64,000 nt of DNA from Parabacteroides sp. Lineage in GTDB: Bacteria; Bacteroidota; Bacteroidia; Bacteroidales; Tannerellaceae. Location of the stretch: contig JALFJR010000066.1 of assembly GCA_022775005.1 (NCBI GenBank), forward strand, positions 16,351-80,350. Direction: 5' to 3'. Under the pieces are notes generated by a model. That model did no database searches. It was not told the DNA's origin and saw only the letters and a list, made by a program, of their open reading frames with translations. Positions 6,419-51,292 of the stretch are shown here, piece after piece; the first letter of the stretch is position 1; every line of letters starts with the position of its first letter. A program made the translations under genes and the position numbers.

Positions 6419-6426
6419 TACCTTTG
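6419..6426 (+). promoter_or_regulatory. Candidate Bacteroidales -7 box (TACCTTTG)
   Basis: TACCTTTG matches the TAnnTTTG -7 consensus used by the Bacteroidetes primary sigma factor. It sits 26 bp before the start of the small gene at 6452. I see no -33 TTTG at the usual 19-21 bp spacing. Confidence 0.4.
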
Positions 6427-6451
6427 TGAGCAAACAGGTGTTGAATCTACT

Positions 6452-6808
6452 ATGTACCGTATAGAAAAAAGGAAAGCTGTTCGTTGGATTTGTATGATCT
6501 TGTTACTGCTCATACAGTTTGATGCGTATGGATACGACGCATTGAATGCCATGACCCAAGAGACAGCCTACATCAGTCTATACGAAGAGACCATAGATGC
6601 AGACACCGAACAAACCGAATGGTCAGACTACCGCTATCGAGTGGTGAAGCAGAGGGCTGAACTGAAATTCACGGCTATTGCCCAAGGGGTAGTTGCCGCA
6701 TTCCTATCAGACAGCGTAACAAAACCCATACATGCGTTCATCCCTGCAACACCTTTAGGATCTATCGTTTCACATGTTAATTTACTCTATTGCACATTCC
6801 TGATTTAG
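6452..6808 (+). CDS. Small hypothetical exported protein
   Basis: A 118-aa reading frame that I do not recognise. The first about 27 residues look like a signal peptide or membrane anchor: basic start MYRIEKRKAVR, then WICMILLLLIQF. The remainder has no domain I can name and ends in a hydrophobic stretch (HVNLLYCTFLI). It has its own -7-like box (6419-6426) and lies alone between the LuxR regulator and the TPR gene. Codon use looks ordinary. It could be a small secreted protein or a chance frame; the promoter-like sequence and signal-like start favour the former. Confidence 0.45.
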   Translation: MYRIEKRKAVRWICMILLLLIQFDAYGYDALNAMTQETAYISLYEETIDADTEQTEWSDYRYRVVKQRAELKFTAIAQGVVAAFLSDSVTKPIHAFIPATPLGSIVSHVNLLYCTFLI

Positions 6809-6975: not shown

Positions 6976-7722
6976 ATGAAAAAAGTAGTCGTATTGGCAG
7001 CATGCTGCCTATTATCCATCGGAAACAGTTTTGCACAAGACGCTGACGCATTGAGAGATGCGGGTGATGCTGCGATGAAAGCAAAAGATTACCCAACAGC
7101 CGTAGCGAAATACAGCGAGTATTTGAAGCAAAACAACTATCAAGACACCGTTCGTATCTTTAATTGTGGTTTCGCCGCCAACCAAGCGAAGAATTATGCG
7201 GAGGCTGCTAAGTTTTTCGATATGGCAGTCAAGATGAACTATAACATGGACGATGCCTATGTAGGTGCAGCCATGGCCTATCGCAATCTCAACCAGACAG
7301 AGGATTTCTTGCGCACGACAGAGGCAGGCCTCAAAGCCATCCCCGCAGACAACAAAAACAAAGCCAACTTAGAGAAACTGGTTTACGCCTATTGCATCAA
7401 ACAGGGACAGGCAGCCCAGAAGAAGGGGGACTTGACTGCCGCTGAGAAGATGTACAAGGAGGTGGTCGATCTTTCCAACAAGAGTTATCAAAGCAAGGCT
7501 TACTATTGCCTGGGTGCCATGATGTATGGAAACGGAGCCAAGATACTGCAAGCCGCCACACCGATCGCCACTTCTGATCCGGAGAAATACAAAGCGGAGA
7601 AGGCTAAAGCGGATAAGGATTTCAAGGCTGCCAAGGAGTACCTCACCCAAGCCGTTGCCTTGGATCCCAACGACGAGAACTCCAAAAAGATTTTGGCTTC
7701 CATTGATGAAGTGCTGAAATAG
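6976..7722 (+). CDS. Periplasmic tetratricopeptide-repeat protein
   Basis: A 248-aa secreted TPR protein. The signal peptide is clear: MKKVVVLAACCLLSIGNSFAQD, with cleavage after SFA. Several TPR-like helix pairs follow (for example AMKAKDYPTAVAKYSEYL, NQAKNYAEAAKFFDMAV, TAAEKMYKEVVDL and AAKEYLTQAVALDPND). TPR proteins act as protein-binding scaffolds; here it should be periplasmic or attached to the inner face of the outer membrane. It is monocistronic, ends in a strong hairpin terminator and converges with the gene at 7804. No specific partner can be inferred. Confidence 0.8.
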   Translation: MKKVVVLAACCLLSIGNSFAQDADALRDAGDAAMKAKDYPTAVAKYSEYLKQNNYQDTVRIFNCGFAANQAKNYAEAAKFFDMAVKMNYNMDDAYVGAAMAYRNLNQTEDFLRTTEAGLKAIPADNKNKANLEKLVYAYCIKQGQAAQKKGDLTAAEKMYKEVVDLSNKSYQSKAYYCLGAMMYGNGAKILQAATPIATSDPEKYKAEKAKADKDFKAAKEYLTQAVALDPNDENSKKILASIDEVLK

Positions 7723-16143: not shown

Positions 16144-16553
16144 TGTTGAGCAGTCCCGCTCAAAGCAATCATCCCAATAAGATACAAAGAACCAAGTAGT
16201 TATCATCGAATAAACAGCCGTGGAACATAATGTTCCACGCACTAATTTCTGTTAAAATCAGCGTTAAAATGGGCCTAAAATCAGTGTTCCACGGCAATTG
16301 TTCCACAGAATGCGCACCCTTTTCGTTGAGCAGTCTTTCTCTGCTCTTTGTATATTGCTAGTTATCAATAGATTACGAAGATTGTAAACGCACGTAAACC
16401 GATTGCGCACTTTATAACATTTCGTTGAGCAGTGTTCCACGAATGTTCCACGGATGTTCCACAATGTGTATCAGCGTATTAACGCTTTCAGACTGCTCAA
16501 CAAAAGTCCGTGGAACATTTTGTTCCACGCGCAACAAAAGTAATGTTCCACGG
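16144..16553. repeat. Cluster of TGTTCCAC boxes and GTTGAGCAGT boxes
   Basis: About ten copies of TGTTCCAC or its complement occur in about 330 bp. Two form near-identical 19-bp palindromes, GTGGAACATAATGTTCCAC (16220-16238) and GTGGAACATTTTGTTCCAC (16510-16528). Three are spaced exactly 11 bp apart (16433, 16444, 16455); others are at 16285, 16299 and 16544. A second motif, (C/T)GTTGAGCAGT, occurs at 16144, 16324 and 16423, inverted at 16492 and again inverted outside the tract at 15755. No reading frame here looks real. The spacing and symmetry suggest protein-binding sites or a repeat-containing RNA. Confidence 0.65.
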
Positions 16554-16624
16554 CTCGATTGCGCCATTTAATGGAGCCGTCTTTTCCCTGCTTCGTGATC
16601 CCTATATACTATAATGTTCGCGCA

Positions 16625-16825: not shown

Positions 16826-16853
16826 ATATGATTGCTGATAGGCAGAAATTCTG

Positions 16854-16975
16854 TTGCCCGTAGTTTTGAAAAGTGTTGCCCGTAGTTTTGGAAAACATTG
16901 CCCGTAGTTTTTTCAGCCGTTGCCGATGGTTTTTCAAAACAATGCCCGTGATTTTTTCGAACCACGGGCAACGTT
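16854..16975. repeat. Five-unit 22-bp array, consensus TTGCCCGTAGTTTT + 8
   Basis: Units begin at 16854, 16876, 16898, 16920 and 16942, a constant 22-bp period. The first three share TTGCCCGTAGTTTT exactly and the last two are degenerate (TTGCCGATGGTTTT, ATGCCCGTGATTTT). The final unit forms a hairpin GCCCGTG...CACGGGC ending at 16975. The array lies 35 bp beyond the stop of the Rpn-like gene (17010-17906, - strand), so it may be its 3' untranslated region. It is not a CRISPR: there are no unique spacers of CRISPR length. Confidence 0.75.
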
Positions 16976-17009: not shown

Positions 17010-17906
17010 TTACAACTGGTCTATTTGCGTTTGTGTCAAGCCTGTGAACTGCATGATAACCTGTGCATTGAGACCGGCTGCTTTCATGTTTTTAGCGATT
17101 TCCATTTTACTTGCCACCATTCCTTGCTCGATACCTTCCGCCAAGCCTTCTGCACGACCTTCTGCCAAGCCTTCCAGCTTTGCCGTGTCGAGCACATCCT
17201 TCTGCACCCGGAGATTGTCCATGTGGGCGAGATAAGCCTTGCGGTCAGCATCCGACATGGTGAGGTAGAGCAGACGTTGACGAGCCTCCTTCAAACCTGG
17301 CGTACAGGTGTCGTCCTTGATGCGATTGTTCTTCAGGTAGTCTAACCATTCCTCTAACGGGGTACGAGCCACGTCGTTGAACTCGTTGACACGCACGATA
17401 TAATACTCCGGGAATACGTCTGTGGGCATAGCCATCTTGATTCCCTCCTTCTCTCGGGTGTTCACCTTCAGCAGGTCGCCCGTATGTACACCCGTAAAGA
17501 CGGTCTTGCCATGATAAAGATAGTCGCTGCCCTGCCCAAGGTCGAAATAGACGATGTTGATGGAATAGACCTTCTTTACCTCACCGTAGGTATCACCTAA
17601 ACCAATGTGTTCCGTGATGGTCTTCGACACGCCGTAAAGTATGCGACGGAGGTAATAGAGCTGCCGAGTCAACTGCACCTCCACGATGATGATGTCGCCA
17701 CGCTCGTTCTTCGCCTTTATATCGACCCGGTTAAACTTGTCGGAGGCATTCTCTTGATTGCCCTCGCTCTCCAGGATCTCGACGATCTTCACTTGCTCGC
17801 CCGTAAGGACCGTGATCAGCCCCTCCAATACGGCAAAGTTCGCCTTGTCGCGAAGCATTCGCTTCACGGCCCAGTCAAATCGTATGTATTTCTCGTTTAC
17901 CTCCAT
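17010..17906 (-). CDS. Rpn family PD-(D/E)XK nuclease/transposase-like protein
   Basis: A 298-aa member of the recombination-promoting nuclease (Rpn)/PDDEXK_2 transposase-like group. The N-terminus (YIRFDWAVKRMLRDKANFAVL) is typical. The nuclease core is visible as RVDIKAKNERGDIIIVEVQ, giving the Asp and the ExQ of a PD-(D/E)XK site. The C-terminus has the characteristic low-complexity EGLAEGRAEGLAEG stretch followed by a short helix-rich tail. Family members are mobile, numerous in Bacteroidetes genomes and cut DNA in the tested cases (RpnA of E. coli). It starts 4 bp after the stop of a DUF2807 gene, so it is read as the second gene of that transcript. Its 3' side abuts a five-unit 22-bp repeat array. 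Confidence 0.85.
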   Translation of the reverse strand: MEVNEKYIRFDWAVKRMLRDKANFAVLEGLITVLTGEQVKIVEILESEGNQENASDKFNRVDIKAKNERGDIIIVEVQLTRQLYYLRRILYGVSKTITEHIGLGDTYGEVKKVYSINIVYFDLGQGSDYLYHGKTVFTGVHTGDLLKVNTREKEGIKMAMPTDVFPEYYIVRVNEFNDVARTPLEEWLDYLKNNRIKDDTCTPGLKEARQRLLYLTMSDADRKAYLAHMDNLRVQKDVLDTAKLEGLAEGRAEGLAEGIEQGMVASKMEIAKNMKAAGLNAQVIMQFTGLTQTQIDQL

Positions 17907-46092: not shown

Positions 46093-46233
46093 CGTCCTTA
46101 TTGATTTAATGATTGAAATATGAGTTTATTCGGTCGCGAAGATACACAAAAACGAGACACGCTACCTTAGGAAAAGCGACTCCCCTTTCGGTTTTCTCTC
46201 TCGAAAAGGGACAAACGTATCGGCAGATTCCGA

Positions 46234-46494
46234 CCAAAAGATGGGCAACAAAACTTCGTGAAGTAGGCACAGAAACTTTCTGATACACGGACAGAAACTG
46301 TGAGAACTGCCCACCTAAACTTCAATTCATGGTTTGGATTTTGTAATCCAAAGCTTGGATTATACAAACCAAAGCTTGAACTATACAATCCAAACCTTAG
46401 ATTTGAGTTTTACTCGGCAATTCGACAAGTTTATGTCGGGGATCTACTAAGTTTTGGTGCCGACATCGCCAAGTTTTACTGGGCAATCTTTTGG
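46234..46494. repeat. 261-bp element: terminal inverted repeats with 22-21-22 bp mirrored arrays
   Basis: The left end (46234-46256) and right end (46471-46494) are imperfect inverted repeats sharing CCAAAAGAT and AAAACTT. Inside, AAACTT recurs every 22 bp at 46251, 46273, 46295 (AAACTG) and 46317. A central array with a 21-bp period follows (TTGGAT at 46334, 46355, TTGAAC 46376, TTAGAT 46397; CCAAA at 46348, 46369, 46390). The first central unit is a perfect palindrome, TTTGGATT-TTGT-AATCCAAA. The complementary AAGTTT then recurs every 22 bp at 46405 (GAGTTT), 46427, 46449 and 46471. The whole lies 34 bp before the -7-like box of the AAA/PD-(D/E)XK gene. The 46093-46233 stretch before it holds no gene. 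Confidence 0.75.
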
Positions 46495-46527
46495 GGAAAT
46501 ATGGGGAACGGCGGGCACTACCTCCGA

Positions 46528-46549
46528 AATAGTTCGTATCTTCGCCGTC
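46528..46549 (+). promoter_or_regulatory. -7-like box in a 22-bp sequence shared with the thyA promoter
   Basis: A 22-bp sequence containing TATCTTCG (46537-46544, one base off TAnnTTTG) is identical to 51293-51314 upstream of thyA. It sits 26 bp before the ATG at 46575. Confidence 0.5.
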
Positions 46550-46574
46550 GGAAATCCATTAACGAGTGAGCGAT

Positions 46575-48167
46575 ATGAAATACCCCATTGGCATGCAGAG
46601 TTTCGACCAAATCCGGGAAGAAGGATTTGTCTATGTGGATAAGACCGACATGGTCTATCAGTTGGCGACACAGGGAAAGATCTATTTCCTCAGCCGCCCC
46701 CGGCGGTTTGGCAAGAGCCTCTTGATCTCTACTTTGGAGAACTACTTCTTGGGCCGCAAGGAGCTCTTTCAAGGGCTTGCCATCGACCGGTTAGAGCAGG
46801 AATGGCTGACTTATCCCGTGTTTCATGTCGATTTCAACGGCAAGGTATTCACCTCGCCCACAGAACTCGCTCAAACGCTGGAAACAATCGTGGCCACAGG
46901 AGAGGACAAATATGGTAAGAGTCCGCATGCCACTACGTTGGGCGACCGACTGGCCTACGTGTTCGAGCAGGCACATGCACAGACCGGTCGGCGAGTCGTG
47001 ATGCTGGTGGATGAATATGATAAGCCGCTGTTGGATGTGCTGGGCACCCACATTCCCTCCCCTGTCGTAGAAGGCGAGATCCAGACTTTGGAGGACTACA
47101 ACCGGGAGCTACTCAAAGGATTCTACAGTGTGTTTAAACTGGCCGATAAACACCTGCGCTTCGTGCTCCTGACGGGTGTCACCAAGTTCTCGCAGATCAG
47201 TGTCTTCAGCGGGTTCAACCAACCGGCGGATATTAGCATGGATAATCGCTATGAGGCATTGTGCGGTATAACAGAAAAGGAGTTATACTCTGTTTTTGCA
47301 GAACCGATCCGTAAATTGGCTGCAACCTATAAGGTAGATGAGACCGAAATGAAGCAAATGCTGAAACAGCATTACGATGGCTATCATTTCAGCGATAACC
47401 TCTTGGATATCTACAATCCTTTCAGTCTGCTGAATTGCTTCTCCAGCTGCTCCATGCGAGACTTCTGGTTCGCCTCCGGCACGCCCACCTATTTGGTACA
47501 CCTGCTAAAGCATTTCAAACAGAATATCAATGAGCTGATCAAAGACTACCACTTCCCCGAGGAGTTCATCGACTACAAAGCGGACGTGGAGCAGCCACTG
47601 CCGATGATCTTCCAAAGTGGCTACCTCACCATCAAGGAGGCAGATCCTCTCACCGGAAGCTACCTGCTGGATTTCCCCAACAAGGAGGTACAGCGGGGAT
47701 TCGTCACACTGATCGCTTCCAGCTACCTCGATACTCGCACGCACAGCCTCTCTAACTGGATGCTCCGATCGATCCGTCAGCTGCAACAGGGCAAGATCCA
47801 GGAGTTCGGCGAGGCCTTGACCGCTTTCTTGGCGGACATTCCTTACGCCATGCGCCGCAAGGATTCTGAACGGGAGCGAGAACGTTATTTCCAATATACC
47901 TTCTTCCTATTGCTCCGGATGCTCAGTTGCTTCACCGTCTATATCGAGAAGGAACAGAGCCAAGGTCGTGTGGATTGCATCGTCAAGGTGCTCGACTACG
48001 TCTATATCTTCGAGTTCAAGTTGGACGGCTCTGCTCAGGAGGCCTTGCGACAGATCGAAGAGAAGGGCTATGCCCGCCCCTACGCCGCCGATCCCCGCAA
48101 GCTCTTCCGCATTGGCGTAAACTTCTCCTCCGAGACAGGGACAATCAGTGAGTTTGAGGTGGAGTGA
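46575..48167 (+). CDS. AAA-ATPase-like protein with C-terminal PD-(D/E)XK domain
   Basis: A 530-aa member of the AAA-ATPase_like/PDDEXK_9 (DUF1703) families that are strongly expanded in Bacteroidales. GMQSFDQIREEGFVYVDKTD is the hallmark start. The Walker A-like loop is SRPRRFGKSLLISTL; the acidic Walker B-type strand is VVMLVDEYDKPLLD; the sensor region LRFVLLTGVTKFSQIS follows. The nuclease part is at the end: GRVDCIVKVLDYVYIFEFKLDGSA, giving Asp and ExK. I chose ATG 46575 over the upstream GTG 46566. Function unproven; a role in DNA processing or mobility is inferred. A remarkable repeat element lies just upstream. Confidence 0.88.
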   Translation: MKYPIGMQSFDQIREEGFVYVDKTDMVYQLATQGKIYFLSRPRRFGKSLLISTLENYFLGRKELFQGLAIDRLEQEWLTYPVFHVDFNGKVFTSPTELAQTLETIVATGEDKYGKSPHATTLGDRLAYVFEQAHAQTGRRVVMLVDEYDKPLLDVLGTHIPSPVVEGEIQTLEDYNRELLKGFYSVFKLADKHLRFVLLTGVTKFSQISVFSGFNQPADISMDNRYEALCGITEKELYSVFAEPIRKLAATYKVDETEMKQMLKQHYDGYHFSDNLLDIYNPFSLLNCFSSCSMRDFWFASGTPTYLVHLLKHFKQNINELIKDYHFPEEFIDYKADVEQPLPMIFQSGYLTIKEADPLTGSYLLDFPNKEVQRGFVTLIASSYLDTRTHSLSNWMLRSIRQLQQGKIQEFGEALTAFLADIPYAMRRKDSERERERYFQYTFFLLLRMLSCFTVYIEKEQSQGRVDCIVKVLDYVYIFEFKLDGSAQEALRQIEEKGYARPYAADPRKLFRIGVNFSSETGTISEFEVE

Positions 48168-48168
48168 T

Positions 48169-50439
48169 TTACTCCACACTCATCTTGAAGCTGTCCTTCT
48201 CCTCATCCCGTAGCTGCTTCTTGTTACGCTGCTTGAAAGTTACCTTGTTCTGGAAATAGTAGGAAAGGCCGACCATCGGTGTCCAGTGGCGATCCTTAAA
48301 GTCGGTCTTCACGTAGCTGCTATATGTGCCGTCTTGCGTCCAGGACTCTGCACCCGCCATGTTGTCACGCAAAGAAAAAGTAAGCGACCAACCTTTGGGC
48401 AGGCTCCATCCTAAAGTGGCATCCGTCATTGCTGCCGAACGCTGATGGGTGGTCTGCGTGTAGAGGTCACTTGTGTAGTTGATCATCGCATTTAGGTAAA
48501 GCCGCTTGTAGGAGAGATAGAGGTTGCTGCTCACGCCCCAGGCGTTACCGCCAAAGGCCATGTCGGGAATGATGCTCCGCTGGAAGAAGGGCGTGACATT
48601 GATATTGCCATATTGCCCCAGGTTGATCCGTCCCGTCAGAGAGAAACGCCACGTCTCGGCATGACCCAAATTGTGGTAGGTGCGATGATAGACATCGCCC
48701 TCCACGAAGCCGATCGGTAGAATGCGATCTTCGATATAGGTGTAGGTGATACCGGGTTGCAGATAGACCGCCTTGCCATTCCAAGCAAAAGAGAGGGTCG
48801 CTCGGTTGCTCACCTCTGGCAGCAAGTAGGGATTGCCCTCAGTGACATAGAGGCTGTCGGTCGAAGTGTTCAGCGGATTCAAGGCATTCAGTTCGGGTGA
48901 GGTACGCTGACGATTAAGTGCCAAACGGAACGTGCCAGAGGGGGAGACTTTGTAAGCCAAGTTGACAGCTGGCAAGAAATTGACATAGCTCTTCCGGGCA
49001 TCCGAGGCGTTGCGGGTCACGATGTCCAACCCCACAGAGAGGGTATAGCTGAAGGGGCGTTTCGCCAAGCTACGCATATCGGCATAAAGGTATTCTCGTC
49101 CCTCCTTATAATTGAAGCGGGTCACGTCAGCAATCCTCGCCTGCTGGTAGTAAGCGTTCAAACCCACGTTGAACACCAATCTCTCCGGCAAGGCAAAATC
49201 ATAATTACCCTCCAAGCGAAACACCTGCCGTCGGTTTTCCATCCGGATCTCGTTGCGGTAGCCATCCTGCTCGCCTCGCCGCTCCTCTCGCCATCCCTCA
49301 GGAGAAGTGTTATAATGGTTCGCCCGGGCGGTCAGTTCCAAGTGACGACTGGGAGTGAAGGTGTGACGATACTGCGCATTGTAGCTGCCCATGAAATAAT
49401 TGCTGTGCAGATAATTAGAGGCGGTGTAGGTGCGCTCGCCCAGCTGGTCGGTCAGCGTGCCCTGATCGTCGGTGTAGTTCTCCGCAGGATTGGCATTGAA
49501 GGTCACGGAATAGATCAGCTGATCCTTTTCCGTGGCGAGCCAGTCGCCACCGGCATTCAGGTTCAGATTGGTGGCATTGTAGCGGCGTGTGCCTGTGAAT
49601 TGGCGGAGCAGGTTTCCGCTGTCGCTCCATCCCTCTCGCTCGCCGTCATCGTGGTGGAAGTAGAAGAGCTGCCCATTCAGATAAAAGGAGAGATTGGCCT
49701 TCTCCGCCTGGTAGTTGCCACCATAGATACCGAACTTGCCGTTGGGGATCTGTCTGCCCCAGACATTGACCGTCTGCGCTAACTGTGGGCTGCGCTTCAC
49801 CCGGAAGTTGATCACCGAGGTCACCCCTTCCTCCGCCAAGTAGCGGCTGGAAGCGTTCTCGATCACCTCCACGCCCTCGATCATGCGGGGGTCGATAGAG
49901 GCCTCTGCCCCCGTACGACGCACCCCGTTGATCAGGATGATCGGCGTGGAGCCATCCACCATCTTGATCGATCGCTCGGTCTCGTTCACGCTGAGCAACG
50001 GTACTTCTCGCAACGCTTGATAGACATTGTGCGCCTCCGCTTTCAGTTTCTCCGAGATATGGAAGGTGGATCCCGCCGCCCCGGTCTGGACAAGCGCCCG
50101 CTGATCAGCCCGCACAGTCACCTCGTCGAGCGCATAACTCTCCTCTTGCAGGCGGATCGTCTCCAACTTGCGGTCGGCATCGAGCCGCAACGAACGCTCC
50201 TCCATCTTATAACCGATCGCCGTGAGACGTAATAGATAGGTAGCTTGCGGTAGTCCCTCCAAGGCGAAACGCCCTTTCGCATCGCTCATACCTCCGGCAG
50301 CCAACGTGTCTTCACACAACAGCAAGACCGTTGCCCCCACCACCGGCTGCTCCGCTTGATCGAGCACCACACCCGTCAGCCCAACCCGCTTCTGGGCAGC
50401 AAGGGCCACAACCATAAACAATCCAAATAGTAGCATCAT
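48169..50439 (-). CDS. Outer-membrane beta-barrel protein with CarboxypepD-like plug region
   Basis: A 756-aa TonB-receptor-like protein (OMP_b-brl_2 type). After a signal peptide (MMLLFGLFMVVALAAQKRVG) comes a carboxypeptidase-regulatory-like repeat (LTGVVLDQAEQPVVGATVLL). A plug-like domain (LKAEAHNVYQALREVPLLS and MVDGSTPIILINGVRR) follows. The rest is an amphipathic barrel with regularly spaced aromatic strands and a C-terminus rich in MVGLSYYFQNKVTF. It should bind a ligand at the surface; no SusD-like partner is adjacent. It is convergent with the AAA/PD-(D/E)XK gene (stops 1-2 bp apart) and divergent from a truncated two-component pair that may once have controlled it. Confidence 0.85.
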   Translation of the reverse strand: MMLLFGLFMVVALAAQKRVGLTGVVLDQAEQPVVGATVLLLCEDTLAAGGMSDAKGRFALEGLPQATYLLRLTAIGYKMEERSLRLDADRKLETIRLQEESYALDEVTVRADQRALVQTGAAGSTFHISEKLKAEAHNVYQALREVPLLSVNETERSIKMVDGSTPIILINGVRRTGAEASIDPRMIEGVEVIENASSRYLAEEGVTSVINFRVKRSPQLAQTVNVWGRQIPNGKFGIYGGNYQAEKANLSFYLNGQLFYFHHDDGEREGWSDSGNLLRQFTGTRRYNATNLNLNAGGDWLATEKDQLIYSVTFNANPAENYTDDQGTLTDQLGERTYTASNYLHSNYFMGSYNAQYRHTFTPSRHLELTARANHYNTSPEGWREERRGEQDGYRNEIRMENRRQVFRLEGNYDFALPERLVFNVGLNAYYQQARIADVTRFNYKEGREYLYADMRSLAKRPFSYTLSVGLDIVTRNASDARKSYVNFLPAVNLAYKVSPSGTFRLALNRQRTSPELNALNPLNTSTDSLYVTEGNPYLLPEVSNRATLSFAWNGKAVYLQPGITYTYIEDRILPIGFVEGDVYHRTYHNLGHAETWRFSLTGRINLGQYGNINVTPFFQRSIIPDMAFGGNAWGVSSNLYLSYKRLYLNAMINYTSDLYTQTTHQRSAAMTDATLGWSLPKGWSLTFSLRDNMAGAESWTQDGTYSSYVKTDFKDRHWTPMVGLSYYFQNKVTFKQRNKKQLRDEEKDSFKMSVE

Positions 50440-50478
50440 CGAGATGCGGAACTCTCTTTTTGGCGTCCACTCAATTAC

Positions 50479-50787
50479 ATGCGTTTAGCCATCCTGCTCT
50501 CAGGCTTGATGATCCTCGGGACGATTGTCCTATTAGTCGGTTTGCTGCGCCGCATCCGTCAATCCAGCCAGCAATTGGCCGAGCGGGAGACAGTTATCCA
50601 CACCGCCATCCATGACCTAAAAGCCCCCTTGAACATCGCCTACTCCACGCTTGATCTAATCATGCTGACCGAACAACAACAGGAACGCCTCCAACAGTTA
50701 GAAACCGGGAAAAGACAGATCCGACTTTTGGTAGAGGTGATTGAGTCTATGCTCTCCTTGCTCAAGCGACCGTTTACTCTTGCTTGA
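50479..50787 (+). pseudogene. Sensor histidine kinase remnant (TM + HisKA only)
   Basis: A 102-aa frame with one membrane helix (AILLSGLMILGTIVLLVGLL), a short linker and a dimerisation/phospho-acceptor helix in which AIHDLKAPLNIAYSTLDLI holds the His. The frame ends at TGA (50785) immediately after SMLSLLKRPF, before any ATP-binding (HATPase) domain. Immediately downstream, in another frame, is the back part of a response regulator. The pair looks like a two-component system joined by an internal deletion at about 50755-50775. Confidence 0.7.
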
Positions 50788-51289
50788 CCTGGAGTTAGGT
50801 GCACGCAACGCGGCTGACCTGCTCCCTTTCATTCACTCGAAATATCCGGAATTGCATTTGATCGTTGCCTCCTCGCATAGCGATGGGGCAGAGATCGCCA
50901 AATGTTACGATGCGGGCATTCAAGCCTATATCAAGAAGCCCTACGACATCCGTGAATTGGATTGCATCATGCGCCGCTTACCGGTAAGAGATGAACCGTC
51001 TTTTGCTCAAGTGCCCGAAGAGGCATACTACCTGCGTGCACACGTCTTGTATCGGGGCGATCATGAAATCCAAAGATTGCCGGATGTGGAGTACCGAATC
51101 CTGCGACAATTGATCGCACAACGAGGGGCAGTCGTTACCAAAGAGGAACTTTGTCAATCCATCTGGGGAGAGCCCAACTTGGATGATCGGTTGAACACCG
51201 CCATATCCAGATTGCGCAAGCTCCTGCCAGCGGATTGCCCGTGGGTGTTAGAAAATCAAAAACGGGTCGGCTATTCCGTGCGCATGTAG
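50741..51289 (+). pseudogene. Response regulator remnant (truncated receiver + winged-helix domain)
   Basis: This frame begins mid-receiver: RLLLLDLELGARNAADLLPF is the beta-3 strand with the phospho-acceptor Asp. LHLIVASSHSDG and IQAYIKKPYD (with the conserved Lys) complete the receiver, and an OmpR-type winged helix follows (YRILRQLIAQRGAVVTKEEL and LDDRLNTAISRLRKLLP). The first about 50 residues of the receiver are missing, and the only starts are a TTG within the kinase remnant. The DNA-binding half is intact and could still be made. Confidence 0.7.
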
Positions 51290-51292
51290 GAG

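Follow-up and report, generated by a model that had tools for sequence, protein, structure and literature searches.

A dispersed intergenic mirror repeat of Bacteroidales with a recurring layout, a putative DNA scaffold for protein binding in register

What maintains a non-coding element whose two halves mirror each other and whose units recur every 21 or 22 bp? Such an element lies on contig C105 of a Parabacteroides genome (G000; 3.1 Mb in 109 contigs), within the stretch of 64,000 nucleotides that we analysed and refer to as the window. A sequence-only reading of the window had proposed that it is a recognition or control element for the AAA-ATPase_like/PD-(D/E)XK protein encoded beside it, or a non-autonomous mobile element moved by that protein. 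The features discussed here are collected in Table 1.

Table 1. Coordinates of the mirrored element, its parts and associated features (window positions unless a stretch is named).
Feature	Position	Strand	Remarks
Whole mirrored element	46234..46494	.	261 bp; mirror axis 46363.5
Left extension, around TATCGGCAGATTCC	46210..46233	.	partly common to C22, C45, C60 and C20 copies (alignment, by eye)
Left arm, 4 x 22-bp units on AAACTT	46251..46333	+	anchors 46251, 46273, 46295 (one mismatch), 46317
Centre, palindromic units TTGGATT..AATCCAA, period 21	46334..46403	.	
Right arm, inverted units on AAGTTT	46405..46476	-	anchors 46405 (one mismatch), 46427, 46449, 46471
Right end, AAGATTGCCCANNNAAACTT on minus strand	46471..46490	-	identical in four copies; a fifth differs by one base
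GTATCTTCGC	46536..46545	+	stretch common to C22 and C45 copies; probably the -7 region of the next gene's promoter
AAA-ATPase_like + PDDEXK_9 gene	46575..48167	+	neighbour, outside the element; accompanies it at C22 too
Inverted 22-bp arrays flanking the 12.2-kb block in G028	L135 ~6420-6551; L269 ~6581-6758		

The mirrored periodic element in the window is real. Its claimed periods of 22 bp in the left arm, 21 bp in the centre and 22 bp in the right arm were confirmed against 2000 dinucleotide-preserving shuffles, for which the best lag between 15 and 30 was taken in each of three parts whose borders had been chosen after the element had been seen. The left arm gave lag 22 at 53% identity (0/2000 shuffles) and the centre lag 21 at 75% identity (0/2000), with weaker support for the right arm at lag 22 and 44% identity (20/2000). 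Tandem Repeats Finder reported 46334-46403 with period 21, 3.3 copies and 77% matches. Around the axis at 46363.5, 84 positions pair with their mirror partners, compared with a shuffle mean of 44 (0/2000). Six of the eight anchors named in the sequence-only reading are perfect, while those at 46295 (AAACTG) and 46405 (GAGTTT) are one base off. The palindrome described there as perfect is so in its 7-bp arms but not in its middle four bases (TTGGATT-TTGT-AATCCAA), and the centre half-sites at 46334, 46355 and 46376 stand, with a weaker one (TTAGATT) at 46397. The two ends form imperfect inverted repeats (46234-46253 and 46475-46494; 20 nt, 75% complementary). The right end is common to five copies of the element; the left end varies between copies and its border is not sharp. 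Across 56 units the information is concentrated in AAACTT, the anchor, at 0.8 to 1.7 bits, and none of the remaining 16 positions exceeds 0.7 bits. The only ORFs that overlap the element in the window are of 60-89 aa.

BLAST placed the element at seven loci in G000, all of them intergenic: C105 itself, C22 (94%), C45 (82%) and C60 (73%), together with partial copies at C20 (83%), C98 (75%) and C3 (80-81%). At C105, C22 and C45 the outer anchors are exactly 226 bp apart, and these three loci match the geometry with zero mismatches. The fixed geometry is not absolute in this genome, given that C60 and C98 have an outer span of 225 bp through 1-bp changes, C20 has 21-bp steps in one arm and the C3 copy lacks the centre.

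We then considered the proposed link to the AAA-ATPase_like gene. The element ends 80 bp upstream of such a gene in the window, and the 94% copy lies upstream of a paralogue, as would be expected of a recognition or control element for the encoded protein. However, an AAA-ATPase_like/PDDEXK_9 gene stands beside two of the seven G000 copies (C105 and C22) and the other five lie elsewhere; moreover, C105 and C22 are one duplicated unit of element plus gene, with homology that begins about 45 bp to the left of the element and extends close to the stop codon of the gene. Viewed from the gene, eight members above the family cut-off were found in G000, six of them without the element. One of the paralogues, on contig C2 (L037), has a promoter and start nearly identical to those of the C22 gene with the element absent, which indicates that the gene does not need the element. 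A genus-wide search returned 188 matches to the gene in 23 of 31 genomes, from which 29 loci were examined together with the eight of G000; two of these 37 had no readable ORF and the remaining 35 were used, an upper count because at a few loci the start was doubtful or the upstream sequence shorter than 500 bp. Arrays of period 10-60 were present upstream at 4 of the 35, two of these four being the mirrored element, and none was present downstream. In G117, a second genome, described below, that carries a distant relative of the element, no AAA-ATPase_like gene was detected by Pfam among the 23 nearest-neighbour ORFs of 12 copies (a family was found for 12 of the 23). Copies were thus found mainly away from such genes; with G000, the genus sample and G117 all against it, we rejected the link and give it scarcely any credence. 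The mirrored element is not the AAA protein's own site, while the more general idea of a mobile or control element is supported by the data that follow. A different 22-bp array, with ACGTACGTG and a sequence unlike the mirrored element, lies upstream of an AAA-ATPase_like gene in G017 (L287).

A distant family with the same layout was recovered by its anchors. Scanning genome contigs for three AAACTT at 22-bp spacing gave at least 114 stretches, and among the 80 listed 40 were from Bacteroidales (one assigned only as Bacteroidia), a count not normalised for the genomes sampled. An arm profile detected both arms in L204 and L247, both from the uncultured Bacteroidales bacterium isolate SI.B26.metabat-bins.71 (G117), and this genome holds 24 matches at 15 places that represent a distant relative of the G000 element. 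Thirteen copies were placed in register, leaving out L403 (two centre units) and L410 (disturbed centre border). In all 13 the centre units follow exact 21-bp steps, and in 25 of the 26 arms the distances of the anchors (with at most one mismatch to AAACTT or ATACTT) from the centre are 29, 51 and 73 bp. The 26th arm, on the right side of L411, is shifted by a fifth centre unit, and in three of the 26 arms the middle anchor is absent, which leaves two. The outer span is 226 bp in 12 of the 13 copies, as it is at C105, C22 and C45, and L411 is longer by one whole 21-bp unit; the earlier suggestion that spacing rather than sequence is kept was therefore borne out. These copies differ by 36% on average and by 50% at most. 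When the 226 bp around the centre of the 13 copies were aligned with MAFFT, there were zero gaps apart from the 21-bp unit gained by L411, although cutting the copies to an equal 226 bp favours a gap-free alignment and it is the anchor positions that provide independent support. Given an indel:substitution ratio of 0.072, the copies, which differ by at least 281 substitutions, should have gained about 20 indels; the ratio is a rough value, since it comes from another genome pair (54 local intergenic alignments of G000 with G028). In a Bacteroidaceae stretch (L186, ~7100-7361), 22-bp AAACTT arms are followed by a GGAAATATATTTCC-like 21-bp centre, and the arm profile matched one arm at E 9e-5; by eye, this is perhaps a third family of the same layout.

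Arrays with units of similar length are frequent nearby, as would suit an ordinary minisatellite grown by slippage and mirrored through a chance inversion. Stretches selected because of the element or AAA genes in them contain 24 arrays in G000 (349 kb), of which 17 have units of 21-22 or 41-44 bp, and 20 arrays in G028 (378 kb), of which 10 do; once the element's own copies (seven in G000) are set aside, the proportions are 10 of 17 and 9 of 19. Slippage alters copy number freely, however, whereas the span and the number of arm units are almost constant here and the mirror is in register, and we consider this origin highly improbable. Long arrays of period 41-42, about four helical turns, were seen in both sister genomes (L037 1861-2099; L138 10357-10678; L264 14705-14941).

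The constraint on the units could act on RNA or on DNA. The centre is palindromic in each family with different letters, namely TTGGATT..AATCCAA in G000 and AAACTAAAGTTTAGTTT and AAACTACGNCGTAGTTT in G117. For the 37 distinct G117 units (L403 and L410 left out), 2 of 20000 permutations reached the observed symmetry, part of which reflects the presence of two subfamilies. Complementarity between the arms was 0.69 within a copy versus 0.71 between copies in G000, and 0.73 within versus 0.57 between copies for the middle unit in G117 (0/5000). Because the two families differ in this respect, the forces acting on them may differ. Units within one G117 copy resemble each other, and in this family the pattern points to putative homogenisation inside a copy. 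If the element were transcribed as a long hairpin, working as an RNA element, attenuator or insulator, the co-variation of G117 arms within copies and the strong predicted folding (z = -7.5 as RNA and -8.5 as DNA, 0/200 shuffles each) would be accounted for, but any inverted repeat folds, and the G000 arms show no co-variation. One symmetric column pair of the G117 centre contains A-T, G-T, G-C and A-C side by side, and the occurrence of A-C beside G-T argues against pairing within one RNA strand, though two other column pairs do co-vary, largely between the two subfamilies. Rfam returned no family at gathering score; below it there were six matches (best E 0.0005), to models of eukaryotic miRNAs and IRESs, which fall on the palindromic centre. 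A reading as RNA structure is weakened by the G000 arms, by the Rfam result and by this column pair, and we regard the hairpin as quite improbable. We instead read the sites as ones that would be recognised as double-stranded DNA in a fixed register.

The position of the element among genes was examined for the 19 copies with two readable neighbours (12 from G117 and 7 from G000), a set without L402 (no right neighbour), L403 and L410 in which the neighbours of L394 rest on doubtful reading frames. Eleven of these copies lie between divergent genes, 7 between tandem genes and 1 between convergent genes. By comparison, 27 of 99 intergenic regions of at least 200 bp in the G000 and G028 stretches are divergent (p = 0.011). 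Relative to family B, another array described next, of which 25 places were used (8 divergent, 10 tandem, 7 convergent), the difference was not significant (p = 0.08), and the preference for divergent promoters is modest. Family B, at 16852-16963 of the window, is a second array of 22-bp units (TTGCCCRTNGTTTTNNAAAACR), some five of them direct and followed by an inverted one and a T-run. It has 74 matching pieces in G000, and its last two units resemble an intrinsic terminator. It adjoins a PD-(D/E)XK family transposase gene (PDDEXK_2, 17010-17906), near which there are further palindromic repeats (TGTTCCACG) at 16200-16560.

A site controlling transcription of the adjacent genes, in the form of an operator array for a regulator, would explain why 18 of the 19 copies are upstream of at least one gene and why 11 are between divergent ones. 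It would less readily explain the neighbours themselves, which have no common function where examined. In G000 a family was assigned to 8 of 14 neighbours, and the neighbours comprise AAA-ATPase_like/PDDEXK_9, alpha/beta hydrolase, an HU-like SPOR protein, ThiF, HAD hydrolase, HU-HIG and PTPS; in G117 the 12 of 23 ORFs with a family include HlyD, uridine kinase, Clp, rubrerythrin, RlmN, fimbrillin, LplA and others. The sister species G028, moreover, has both C45 genes without the element. We consider such a control site unlikely.

The element family looks rare and patchy. In a search of 393 Bacteroidales genomes the AAACTT geometry occurred with fewer than 3 mismatches solely in G000. Another 11 genomes matched at 13 places with exactly 3 mismatches, which we took as chance since they are rarer than those of the backward control (23 places in 22 genomes). 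Neither G028 nor G117 appears in the matches listed. The evidence thus rests on two lineages. Neither the 50,697 phage records nor the 72,556 plasmid records contained a match, and for the 80 listed of 86 viral stretches with the triple anchor the arm profile gave nothing better than E 0.001; a phage or plasmid origin, having no matching record, was set aside. When 117 relatives were searched with the element sequence, four matched, G000 included: G028 has one full orthologous copy and one arm-only piece, and G016 and G017 match over 37 bp of the centre. Six of the nine first-look candidates were scored when G028 was searched for more copies, and diverged ones may therefore have escaped notice there. 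At ~1500-1600 of L103 (G017) and L104 (G016) there are palindromes of period ~21 with a skeleton, GTGG..TATA..CCAC, that by eye is like the element's centre.

Except for C22, the comparable places in G028 are without the element. C45 corresponds to a clean empty site with both neighbour genes present, where no target-site duplication was visible by eye (one site, with flanks ~85% identical). At C60, C20 and C3 the two flanks are not adjacent in G028, for C98 only one flank was found there, and at C105 the block 46145-51292 is missing. Gene order is therefore broken at 5 of 7 element loci (counting C98 with its one flank), compared with 11 of 57 other intergenic regions (p = 0.009), where the background is approximate because the G028 stretches were picked from element flanks and the p-values assume independent loci. 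Of those 57, 46 were continuous, 2 broken and 9 had one flank only, the last two classes giving the 11; a further 35 were excluded, 33 because neither of their flanks could be mapped and 2 because they lay close to the end of a stretch. Both broken regions are far ends of the blocks moved at C60 and C3, and without them the background is 9 of 55 (p = 0.005). The 12.2-kb block that adjoins the C60 copy sits elsewhere in G028, flanked by inverted copies of another 22-bp array. Recombination between element copies was tried as the cause of the breaks and rejected: the partner-flank stretches in G028 match no direct flank of another copy, and a simple exchange among the seven copies is thus not supported.

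Several of these observations would also be produced by a MITE-like transposon relic without host function, whose arms would be transposase sites and whose geometry would reflect the needs of transposition alone. Such a relic would be multi-copy, intergenic and near-palindromic, missing at comparable places of the sister species and associated with gene-order breaks (5/7 vs 11/57, p = 0.009), and it would fit the right end common to five copies and the joint duplication of element and gene. Ends of the Tn7/Mu type likewise carry several transposase sites of ~22 bp. Nevertheless, C45, the sole clean empty site, has no target-site duplication, the left end is poorly delimited, and indels would be expected, yet none is seen in 13 G117 copies 36% apart besides one whole unit. 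Nor did a search of G000 with the right-end pattern (up to 3 mismatches) yield an extra copy that could mark an autonomous partner, the five best matches being element copies and the next, with 2 mismatches, lying inside a family B array; as the assembly is in 109 contigs, such a partner could be missing from it. A relic of this kind is possible, though we think it rather improbable.

The reading that we prefer, and to which we give an even chance, is that this dispersed intergenic mirror repeat is a DNA scaffold on which a putative protein binds in register. The element is dispersed and probably mobile, and would present a geometry-fixed platform to a putative symmetric protein complex. Such a protein would bind in register along the 22-bp arms, which approach the row of 21-bp palindromes from either side; as both periods correspond to about two helical turns, it would form a symmetric multimer on about one face of the helix. 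The element would spread as a non-autonomous mobile unit and would act on nearby promoters or on local DNA topology. Sequence analysis identified no DNA-binding protein for it. A more tentative proposal, which we think could be true but would not expect to be, is that the element belongs to a class defined by geometry and not by sequence (mirrored 22-bp arms, four 21-bp palindromes and a 226-bp outer span, with up to half of the letters replaceable and the spacing exact throughout). It would be the landing platform of a candidate Bacteroidales nucleoprotein machine, symmetric in build, by which DNA between divergent promoters would be wrapped or bridged and sites of chromosome rearrangement marked. 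Bacterial repeat families are usually recognised by sequence; two Bacteroidales families with a base-exact common layout and many differing letters would imply a partner protein that reads spacing and symmetry. That protein, if found, would explain a layer of Bacteroidales intergenic DNA, and a part in chromosome rearrangement can be tested directly through the association with gene-order breaks.

Several known systems resemble the element in part. The BIME/REP sequences of enterobacteria are palindromic units scattered between genes in opposite orientations; they have roles in protein binding and are mobilised by RAYT transposases. The mirrored element shares this type of layout, although we know of no fixed 226-bp geometry for BIME/REP. 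The ends of Tn7 and Mu each carry their several ~22-bp transposase sites in opposite orientation; unlike them, the mirrored element has no transposase gene, no TGT..ACA termini and no target-site duplication at C45. It resembles MITEs in its size (~261 bp), its non-coding nature and its seven places in G000, and differs from them in that no target-site duplication was seen at C45, the one site examined, and no autonomous relative with the same ends was found in the G000 assembly. No title or abstract describing the element was found in the literature, with subscription journals mostly outside the scope of the search.

Closest in kind among published relatives are the minisatellite-bearing MITEs of Porphyromonas gingivalis named BrickBuilt (PMC4596501). 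These are intergenic and non-coding, with 19 copies in one genome, 23-nt tandem units, inverted ends, strain-variable presence and predicted long stem-loops; they have leader and tail segments and IS5-type ends (GAGACC-type), and their unit number ranges from 1 to 22.8, expanding and contracting between strains (PMC4596501). The same source mentions the 41-nt repeats of MITE464/PgRS and the 22-nt repeats of W83, whose unit lengths are like those of arrays found here, and in the sections consulted no mirrored architecture is described for them (PMC4596501). BrickBuilt and the mirrored element have in common that they are Bacteroidales, intergenic, non-coding and multi-copy, with tandem units, predicted long stem-loops and, less clearly in the mirrored element, inverted ends (PMC4596501). 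The mirrored element, in contrast, is built of 22-bp and 21-bp units, with a centre that is palindromic and a right end that differs, its ends reading CCAAAAGAT.. where PMC4596501 gives others. Judged against what that source describes, it is the nearly fixed unit numbers and the mirrored unit order that set the element apart from MITEs of the BrickBuilt type (PMC4596501).
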